From positions 11,881 through 36,328 of IMG/VR virus record IMGVR_UViG_3300030106_000738: a DNA stretch of 24,448 nt. The stretch is one strand, 5' to 3'. The DNA comes from a virus. How positions within the stretch are numbered: the first letter of the stretch is position 1; each line of letters starts with the position of its first letter. The translations under genes were made by a program, and so were the position numbers. The notes below the pieces were generated by a model. The model saw nothing but the letters and a program-made list of their open reading frames with translations, did not search any database and had not been told where the DNA came from. This document shows positions 20,553 to 22,079 of the stretch, piece after piece.

Positions 20553-20756
20553 TTACTTTTCCCTTTCCCTTAGTCGTTTAGCTTTCAGGACTCGCTTTAT
20601 GTTTTCTTTTTTTATTCTTTGTTTTTTAAGAGAAGGTTTCTCATAATATTGTCTTTGTTTTAACTCTCTCATAACACCTTCTTTTAAAAGTTTTTTCTTT
20701 AGCTGTCTGATTGCTTTTTCAACATTGTTGTTTTTTACTATAACAGTTAATGACAT
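20553..20756 (-). CDS. rpsU: Phage-encoded ribosomal protein bS21
   Basis: 67 aa. LTVIVKNNNVEKAIRQLKKK, the following LLKEGVMRELKQRQYYEKPS and the Lys/Arg-rich C-terminus match bacterial bS21, especially the alphaproteobacterial form with its YYEKPS signature. bS21 sits on the 30S platform near the anti-Shine-Dalgarno and helps mRNA selection. A phage copy could replace the host protein and bias initiation to phage messages, as proposed in the literature on viral ribosomal proteins. The ATG has AGGAG 7 nt upstream. Its leader contains a terminator-like hairpin and a tRNA-like cloverleaf, suggesting RNA-based control. The link to leaderless phage messages is a hypothesis. Confidence 0.93.
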   Translation of the reverse strand: MSLTVIVKNNNVEKAIRQLKKKLLKEGVMRELKQRQYYEKPSLKKQRIKKENIKRVLKAKRLREREK

Positions 20757-20773
20757 AATGTAACTCCTGTGTT

Positions 20774-20847
20774 TGGAGCGGATACCAGGTAACGCACCTG
20801 GGTCTCCAGTTTGGTAAACTGGCGTAATACTTTTATACCATACCCGC
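20774..20847 (-). ncRNA. tRNA-like cloverleaf ending in CCA, in the bS21 leader
   Basis: The minus strand gives a 74-nt element with tRNA geometry: 7-bp acceptor stem (GCGGGTA / TATCCGC, one G-U), discriminator T and encoded CCA, U8, a short 3-bp D stem, a perfect 5-bp anticodon stem (CCAGT/ACTGG) with loop TTACCAA, a 4-nt variable loop and a perfect 5-bp T stem (CCAGG/CCTGG). It departs from a working tRNA: the D loop lacks the GG pair, the T loop is TGCGTTA instead of TTCRANY, and the anticodon would be ACC, very rare in bacteria. It ends 17 nt before the bS21 ATG. It is either a degenerate tRNA-Gly or a tRNA mimic controlling bS21. Confidence 0.55.
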
Positions 20848-20849
20848 CT

Positions 20850-20877
20850 AAAACACCGTGGGCATGTCTGCCCACGG
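20850..20877 (-). terminator. Intrinsic-terminator-like hairpin after the MoxR gene
   Basis: A perfect 8-bp GC-rich stem (CCGTGGGC / GCCCACGG, 20856-20877) with a 6-nt loop is followed on the minus strand by TGTTTTA. It lies 33 nt after the MoxR stop and directly abuts the tRNA-like element. With no promoter visible between it and bS21, bS21 transcription must read through it, so it may be a partial terminator or attenuator. Confidence 0.6.
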
Positions 20878-20909
20878 ATACGAGGTCTACATTATGGACA
20901 AATTTCGTA

Positions 20910-22079
20910 TTATTCAGAAACACTAGGTGTCTCCTCATTTACTACCTCATTGTCATTGGTATCTCCAGACAAGTCTTCTATATTGACACCTGCGTCAACT
21001 TTAGAATACAAGTCTAAGAAACTGTTTTTAGTATCATCATCAAATCTGTTAACACAGACTTGGACAGCTTTTAACTTATTCTTAAAGATAGCAAAAGCAT
21101 TAATGATATGTACTAGTCTTCTAGTAGCAATAATCTCATCAACACCGCCATCATAAAAAGTTTTTCTAATAACGTCTGCCCATTTTACTAAGTTCTCAGT
21201 AAACTTACCATCTTTTAAATCGTAAGCAGACATAACGTTATCTAAAATTTTCTGTTCTACTTTTACAGGAGGATACTCTTGTTCAAATGTAACAGGAAAT
21301 CTTTCAAGGAATGCTTCATTGAGTATATTAGTACCAATAAATCTTCCGTCTTCACTACCTTTACCTTTAGTATTGGCAGTAGCAACAATATTGAAACCAT
21401 CAGCAGGTTCAATAAACTTACCTATCTTTTTAAGGAACACACCGTTACCTTCAAGTATTGGTTGTAAACACATAATCTTATTAGAAGCAAGGTCAATCTC
21501 ATCTAATAAAAGAAGAGCACCCCTTTTCATTGCGTCAACAACTGGACCGTCATGCCACACAGTAGCACCGTCAACTAATCTGAAACCACCAAGTAAATCG
21601 TCCTCGTCAGTTTCAACAGTAATGTTCACTCTAATTAATTCTCTTTTTAACTCAGCACACGCTTGAGTAACACCTAAAGTCTTACCGTTACCAGAAAGAC
21701 CTGTTATAAATGTAGGATAGAATATTTTAGATTTTACAATATTCTTAATATCTTTGTAATTACCAAAAGATACGAAAGTTGCCTCTTTATTAGGGACTAA
21801 ACTTTCAGTATTCTGAGCAGTCTCTTTTAGAGTAACTGTCTCAGCAACTTCTTTTTTAGGTAATTTTTGTTTGATGTTTTTACTAGGGTTAACTACGCCG
21901 TTAGATGGTAACTTATATAATCCTCTACCCACTTTGTAGTCTCCTGAATTTACTAACCAACTGTTACCAGTTAAGTTAAATTTAGTTTCAAGTTCTTGGA
22001 CTTGCTTTCTAGTAATCTCATCAGATCCATATTCTTTCAAAGCAAGGTCAACAAACTTTTGTTGTTTTTCGTTTAACAT
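20910..22079 (-). CDS. MoxR/CobS-like AAA+ ATPase
   Basis: 389 aa from the ATG at 22079, chosen for AAGGAG 9 nt upstream; the frame extends 15 codons further without a binding site. Residues 1-55 look like a small N-terminal domain (EKQQKFVDLALKEYGSDEIT), then a linker. The AAA+ core has Walker A GLSGNGKT, Walker B LLLLDEID, sensor NIVATANTKG and LERFPVTFEQEYP, with the insert typical of MoxR proteins. The tail is acidic. Marine T4-like phages often carry this gene annotated as cobS. MoxR ATPases normally partner a VWA protein encoded next door, as here, to remodel or load metal into targets. A chaperone role is better supported by context than cobalamin synthesis. Confidence 0.88.
   Translation of the reverse strand: MLNEKQQKFVDLALKEYGSDEITRKQVQELETKFNLTGNSWLVNSGDYKVGRGLYKLPSNGVVNPSKNIKQKLPKKEVAETVTLKETAQNTESLVPNKEATFVSFGNYKDIKNIVKSKIFYPTFITGLSGNGKTLGVTQACAELKRELIRVNITVETDEDDLLGGFRLVDGATVWHDGPVVDAMKRGALLLLDEIDLASNKIMCLQPILEGNGVFLKKIGKFIEPADGFNIVATANTKGKGSEDGRFIGTNILNEAFLERFPVTFEQEYPPVKVEQKILDNVMSAYDLKDGKFTENLVKWADVIRKTFYDGGVDEIIATRRLVHIINAFAIFKNKLKAVQVCVNRFDDDTKNSFLDLYSKVDAGVNIEDLSGDTNDNEVVNEETPSVSE

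Follow-up and report, generated by a model that had tools for sequence, protein, structure and literature searches.

Upstream of the bS21 gene in the window (the whole 24,448-nt stretch of viral DNA analysed here) lies a 74-nt cloverleaf that we interpret, with a probability of about 70%, as a phage tRNA-Gly gene with an alternative A18-G55 elbow, co-transcribed with bS21 in HTVC008M-type pelagimyophages and used in translation. At the level of sequence comparison, its tRNA fold, the selection on its stems, its glycine identity and the coupling of its two elbow positions are established. The main interest of the element is this coupled, recurrent exchange of the elbow in phage tRNAs, not bS21 mimicry.

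A tRNA-Gly gene upstream of bS21

The cloverleaf has an acceptor stem of 7 bp, anticodon and T stems of 5 bp each, a U8 and an encoded 3' CCA, which ends 17 nt before the bS21 ATG on the same strand with AGGAG in between (Table 1). Its D stem consists of 3 bp plus U13-U22, and that of the element family of 3 bp plus U-U or U-A. ARAGORN, run independently of Rfam, identified a tRNA-Gly(ACC). The Rfam tRNA model RF00005 scored 51.9 bits (E 1.1e-8; cut-off 29) and the family model R1 scored 90.3 bits. These results agree with the architecture, the spacing to bS21 and the ACC anticodon read in an earlier note on this DNA. The folding z-score of the element alone was -2.4, covariation among relatives being a far stronger signal. 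A 63-aa ORF spanning the tRNA (20747-20938) was set aside as spurious. The source contig, of 46.9 kb, is closest to Pelagibacter phage HTVC008M, with 82.7% identity at the element region.

Relatives were collected with a DNA pattern that imposed the acceptor, the D arm and the CCA, including U73 and the first acceptor pairs, and left the anticodon free. The search returned at least 119 viral stretches with 75 distinct sequences. In a set of 50 thinned viral relatives (A1), 99.3% of cells were paired across the cloverleaf, and arms of 7/4/5/5 bp showed compensatory variation. Double compensatory cells numbered 225 at 20 stem pairs compared to 59 in shuffles, changes on both sides were observed at 13 of the 20 pairs, and paired cells dropped to 36-49% in slid controls. 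Given this covariation and both sets of controls, the element is a structured RNA whose stems are all under selection; the compensatory changes among related phages for which the earlier note had suggested looking are present. Further hallmarks of a tRNA were G19-C56 in 73/73 members, U8-A14 in 71/73 and an invariant G53-C61 pair closing the T stem.

The bacterial glycine identity set comprises G1-C72, C2-G71, U73, C35 and C36 (PMC9976931). All of these are constant in the relatives; the constancy of U73 and the first acceptor pairs was imposed by the search pattern, that of C35 and C36 was not. The anticodon is NCC (UCC, ACC, GCC or CCC), with C35 and C36, in all 81 distinct family members, which the pattern did not ask for, and U33 is kept nearly always. 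The earlier note had judged the element unlikely to be an ordinary tRNA. This holds for its sequence but not for its nature, which is that of a tRNA-Gly gene with U73 and the full glycine identity set. The anticodon loop has 6 or 5 nt in 6 of the 81 distinct members (L121:4168-4240, L127:5113-5185, L174:6417-6489, L137:5557-5629, L132:3400-3472 and L183:930-1001), in which CCAA after U is still kept. Within the 6-nt-loop clade, a later compensatory acceptor change replaced C6-G67 with U6-A67 (L121 versus L127/L174). According to PMC8007984, no surveyed cellular genome has a tRNA-Gly with the ACC anticodon. Copies of tRNA-Gly(ACC) with a canonical elbow were observed at L146:3359-3433, L170:9558-9632, L187:3083-3157 and L221:6850-6924.

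Table 1. Features of the tRNA-Gly(ACC) and bS21 region, in window positions
Feature	Position	Strand	Basis
tRNA-Gly(ACC) gene, encoded CCA, discriminator U73	20774..20847	-	ARAGORN; Rfam RF00005; family model R1; covariation
Anticodon ACC, positions 34-36; C35 and C36 glycine identity, family-invariant	20813..20815	-	ARAGORN; family alignment; identity set PMC9976931
A18, in place of near-universal G18	20831..20831	-	sequence; family alignment
G19, retained, pairs with C56 (20794)	20830..20830	-	G19-C56 in 73/73
G55, in place of near-universal U55 (psi55), covaries with A18	20795..20795	-	T-loop scans; 18/55 table
Shine-Dalgarno AGGAG of bS21, between tRNA and ATG	20764..20768	-	sequence
bS21 (PF01165), first gene after the tRNA	20553..20756	-	PF01165 match
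9-bp hairpin 5' of the tRNA; relatives that lack the tRNA also keep a hairpin before bS21	20856..20877	-	leader comparison
CATAATGTAGACCTC motif conserved in bS21 leaders of pelagimyophages; candidate promoter or transcript start	20882..20896	-	leader comparison

The exchanged elbow at positions 18 and 55

The D loop of the window element, AAAAGUA, corresponds to A14 A15 A16 A18 G19 U20 A21, and its T loop is UGCGUUA. Textbooks present the contact between G18 and psi55 as universal, and tRNA-finding programs rely on it. In place of this contact and of U54-A58, all 73 family members have A18-G55, in T loops of the form xGCRxUA, and the 54-58 pair is G-G in 50/73 and otherwise A-U, U-U, C-A or U-A. 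The D loop had been described as lacking GG and the T loop as noncanonical: G18 is indeed absent and G55 is present, but G19 and C56 are both kept, so the G19-C56 elbow pair is intact. Since 18 and 55 are swapped as a covarying pair, the variant is altered and the tRNA class unchanged. The tRNA-Gly(UCC) of T4-type phages resembles the family in its length of 74 nt, GCGG acceptor, D stem RYATA..GTA, U73 CCA and NCC anticodon. It is canonical in having G18G19 and TTCGATT, whereas in the family A18 is combined with G55, frequently alongside G54-G58 or A54-U58 in the T loop. This T4-type tRNA is very likely the parent type of the family, as judged from these shared features.

To follow the coupling of the two positions, each was scanned separately. 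A T-loop scan for G55 that left the D loop unconstrained found A18 in 65 of 65 distinct full-length sequences, and a D-loop scan for G18 found T55 in nearly all sequences and G55 in none. Rare G18 members with an unusual T-loop frame (GTCAGTA, ATCGTTA) had T55. Possible intermediates at L335-6286, L278-6674 and L296+9998, with T loop GTCAGTA or ATCGTT(A/C) and G18-T55, lie beside other tRNAs. In a set of 283 distinct viral tRNAs covering many isotypes, sampled by patterns and not a census, the combinations at 18/55 were G/T in 148, A/G in 128, G/C in 4, A/T in 3 and G/G in 0. On a tree built on 58 columns without the D and T loops, A18 changed 29 times and G55 28 times, and 13 independent supported pairs gave 11.8 concordant and 0 discordant changes (p ~0.0005). 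We take A18-G55 to be a compensated, functional alternative elbow in which G19-C56 is kept. The swap deprives the tRNA of the nucleotides that are modified to Gm18 and psi55. A literature search found no paper on an A18/G55 elbow; subscription papers were mostly outside that search, and novelty is provisional.

Departures from the standard elbow have been described in other settings. The Steinberg group reportedly selected suppressor tRNAs in which G54-A58 or G54-G58 replaces U54-A58. Those suppressors came from laboratory selection, whereas the phage family is natural and has G54-G58 as its commonest T-loop state. Natural tRNAs without G18 and TpsiC also include tRNA-Pyl and mitochondrial tRNAs with non-canonical D and T loops, but these have other stem lengths or have lost the D/T contact, while the phage family has standard stems and one tertiary pair exchanged (PMC7609411).

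The exchange extends beyond this family. Several host-type tRNA-Gly(GCC), separately derived, also have A18-G55, and the near-identical host-type relatives L196 and L101 have G18/T55 and A18/G55, respectively. Non-Gly tRNAs detected by ARAGORN on the family contigs were all canonical (G18-T55). A Gly-specific swap is ruled out by A18-G55 in Thr, Phe, Met, Ile, Lys and other viral tRNAs. A control scan with one A18 D arm, open to any isotype, returned 75 viral loci; the 38 parsed A18 cloverleaves had G55 in 35, covering about a dozen isotypes, and T55 in 3, and the G18 twin D arm had T55 in 38 of 39 and C55 in 1. In bacteria, the A18 D-arm sequence was found in 0 of 299 genomes (the phylum of MAG G013) and the G18 twin in 291 of them. 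The A18 family pattern had a single genome_contigs match, L362:2000-2073 in MAG Alphaproteobacteria TMED93. The matching contig probably belongs to a phage and was placed in the MAG by binning; the MAG has a canonical tRNA-Gly(UCC) of its own on a different contig. Cultured Salmonella phage PVP-SE1 has A18-G55 in 1 of its 24 annotated tRNAs. This tRNA-Ile(GAU) (L533:6001-6076) has the T loop AGCAAAG, and identical copies occur in related cultured phages. None of the tRNAs of phage T5 or of Pseudomonas phage JG004 has A18-G55. Canonical UCC tRNA-Gly occurs alongside variant UCC tRNA-Gly in L084, L094 and L145, and GCC and UCC variant members occur together in one phage in L114, L118 and L124. 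As far as these scans reach, the swap recurs in phage tRNAs and is not seen in the sampled bacterial genomes.

Genomic neighbourhood and transcription

An IMG/VR search for bS21 returned 80 loci. The element precedes bS21 in the HTVC008M-like loci L001-L023 (L007, whose sequence starts too near bS21, is left out of this count) and is absent from more distant loci. Of 79 bS21 leaders, 31 share the leader motif but lack the tRNA. In the leaders of the window and of L025-L058, CATAATGTAGACCTC is followed mostly by a hairpin of varying sequence, with the tRNA present or absent. In several relatives, ACCTC in the bS21 leader is complementary to GAGGT in the Shine-Dalgarno of bS21 and might pair with it. 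The leader comparison makes the CATAATGTAGACCTC/hairpin leader a more plausible control element of bS21 than the tRNA. The gene that follows the element is the gp45 clamp in most relatives and peroxiredoxin, bS21 or a further gene in others. The element also lies within tRNA clusters (L084, L168) or stands free with its own terminator (L094, L123, L139 and others). In Mosig it is located between hsp20 and gp45, far from bS21, which has no tRNA there. In the complete phage HTVC008M it is the only tRNA found by Rfam and R1, and HTVC008M is listed with zero tRNAs in a published survey (PMC7029224).

A TTGAC-N(15-19)-TATAAT-like promoter was observed in 80 of 116 contexts, with a spacer of 17 in 72, compared to 38 of 4000 random 60-mers (1%). 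In 51 promoter-bearing contexts the -10 ends 7 or 8 nt before tRNA nucleotide 1, and the predicted start of this sigma70-type promoter is at tRNA nucleotide 1 or 1-2 nt before it. This spacing suggests that the tRNAs of the relatives are probably transcribed nearly leaderless. At L083:2445-2500 and in about 80 other contexts, the strong sigma70-type promoter heads a gp45 or peroxiredoxin operon. The window tRNA differs from these relatives in being preceded by the CATAATGTAGACCTC motif and hairpin.

The earlier note had proposed that the element is a tRNA mimic that controls bS21, or a means of recruiting RNase P to its message. The element does lie on the strand of the next gene, often 10-40 nt before the start codon, and before gp45 the transcript would start with the tRNA; compact phage operons, however, place any element near a start codon. 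An autoregulatory leader would be tied to its regulated gene, whereas here the downstream genes differ among relatives, copies have terminators or lie inside tRNA clusters, and bS21 leaders occur without the element. Glycine anticodons and the discriminator are kept in all relatives, which an rRNA-mimicking leader would not need and which control of a downstream gene would leave unexplained. The other locations of the element argue against a bS21 leader or mimic, and we consider a tRNA-like leader of whichever gene follows very improbable. RNase P processing of the bS21 message is possible, and would be ordinary tRNA punctuation. A decaying tRNA pseudogene, the alternative that the earlier note had allowed for, might be read from the non-consensus loops and from the failure of the Rfam tRNA model to find the Mosig copy, which is annotated as a hypothetical protein. 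This reading is refuted: all arms and the elbow show covariation, and conservation extends over at least 81 distinct sequences. Its chance is negligible.

Possible roles of the tRNA and its elbow

In the explanation we favour, a phage tRNA-Gly used in translation, host tRNA processing would cut the tRNA from the bS21 transcript, host GlyRS would charge it with glycine, and the charged tRNA would serve translation, its ACC anticodon reading the GGU-rich phage genes. The phage tRNA may also replace host tRNA-Gly lost through host defence or decay, and the elbow swap was possibly favoured by escape from elbow-reading enzymes. GGU accounts for 295 of the 385 Gly codons of the window (77%), which matches the ACC anticodon. 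The GGU-rich Gly codons, the complementary GCC and UCC members and the kept U33 favour a decoding role. The anticodon loops of 6 or 5 nt should decode poorly and count against pure decoding, and decoding alone looks redundant where canonical UCC stands beside variant UCC. The absence of ACC from surveyed cellular genomes (PMC8007984) also counts against the favoured explanation. UCC members mismatch the main Gly codon of their phages. Gly codon shares barely differ between ACC, UCC and GCC carriers, so codon compensation is weak as the sole reason.

The swap could also serve immune evasion, in that nucleases or toxins of host or phage that read the G18-psi55 elbow would destroy host tRNAs and spare the phage copies. 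Phage tRNAs evade tRNA-targeting defence through sequence change (PMC10264068, PMC12409363), and defence escape is the closest known reason for altered phage tRNAs. The defence-evading tRNAs are likewise copies of host species changed at constant positions (PMC10264068, PMC11555353, PMC12409363), but the escape changes known there affect the anticodon stem-loop or U16 of the D loop, whereas here the changes are at elbow positions 18 and 55, with no defence system linked. tRNA-Gly is targeted by toxSAS FaRel2 and GNAT toxins (PMC11559606), although these read the acceptor stem rather than the elbow; the D loop is what AriB recognizes. Phage T5, the textbook example of escape by means of tRNAs, was considered as a known defence escaper with a swapped elbow and has none. 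We know of no effector that reads 18-55. Recurrence in phages, with the D arm in 0/299 bacterial genomes, and the swap of two different Gly isoacceptors in several phages speak for evasion, while other tRNAs of the same phages retain G18-T55 (PVP-SE1 is swapped in 1/24). We regard evasion as unlikely.

A glycyl-tRNA set apart from the ribosome, charged, withheld from EF-Tu by its altered loops and serving as substrate for a transferase of the phage or the host, has its closest functional analogue in the staphylococcal cell-wall tRNA-Gly. The non-proteinogenic tRNA-Gly(UCC) of the staphylococcal pentaglycine bridge resembles the phage family in that its glycine identity is intact while its D and T loops are altered; it is well charged and binds EF-Tu poorly (Giannouli 2009, via PMC8007984). 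Use in the cell wall and weak EF-Tu binding are established for the staphylococcal tRNA and hypothetical for the phage family; the phage elbow differs in keeping G19-C56, and these phages have no known Gly-transferase. A non-ribosomal role would fit the retention of glycine identity even in members with anticodon loops too short for decoding, the acceptor compensation in the 6-nt clade and the coexistence of canonical and variant UCC tRNA-Gly. It fits less well with the same elbow in phage Ile, Phe, Thr, Met, Lys and other tRNAs and with the complementary pairs formed by GCC and UCC variants. No Gly-tRNA-dependent transferase is among the HTVC008M annotations, in which most genes are unnamed. 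Such a role appears clearly unlikely.

Because its elbow is non-canonical, a widespread marine-phage tRNA has been overlooked, as in the zero tRNAs listed for HTVC008M (PMC7029224) and the hypothetical protein of Mosig. Through it, phages supply a tRNA-Gly(ACC), whose anticodon is not found in any cellular genome surveyed, according to PMC8007984. As a natural, repeatedly evolved and covarying replacement, the swap shows what the elbow needs: a stacked purine at 18, a partner at 55, and G19-C56. The reasons proposed for it are defence escape, independence from modification and non-ribosomal use, and it offers a way to test whether enzymes that recognize the elbow are evaded by phage tRNAs. We tentatively put forward, as a possibility, that A18-G55 is a natural second solution of the elbow, which phages may have repeatedly adopted in many tRNA species because it puts the tRNA out of reach of host enzymes that recognize or modify G18-U55, and which may have become fixed in a dedicated tRNA-Gly of marine T4-like phages, including the ACC form, perhaps with a role beyond decoding.
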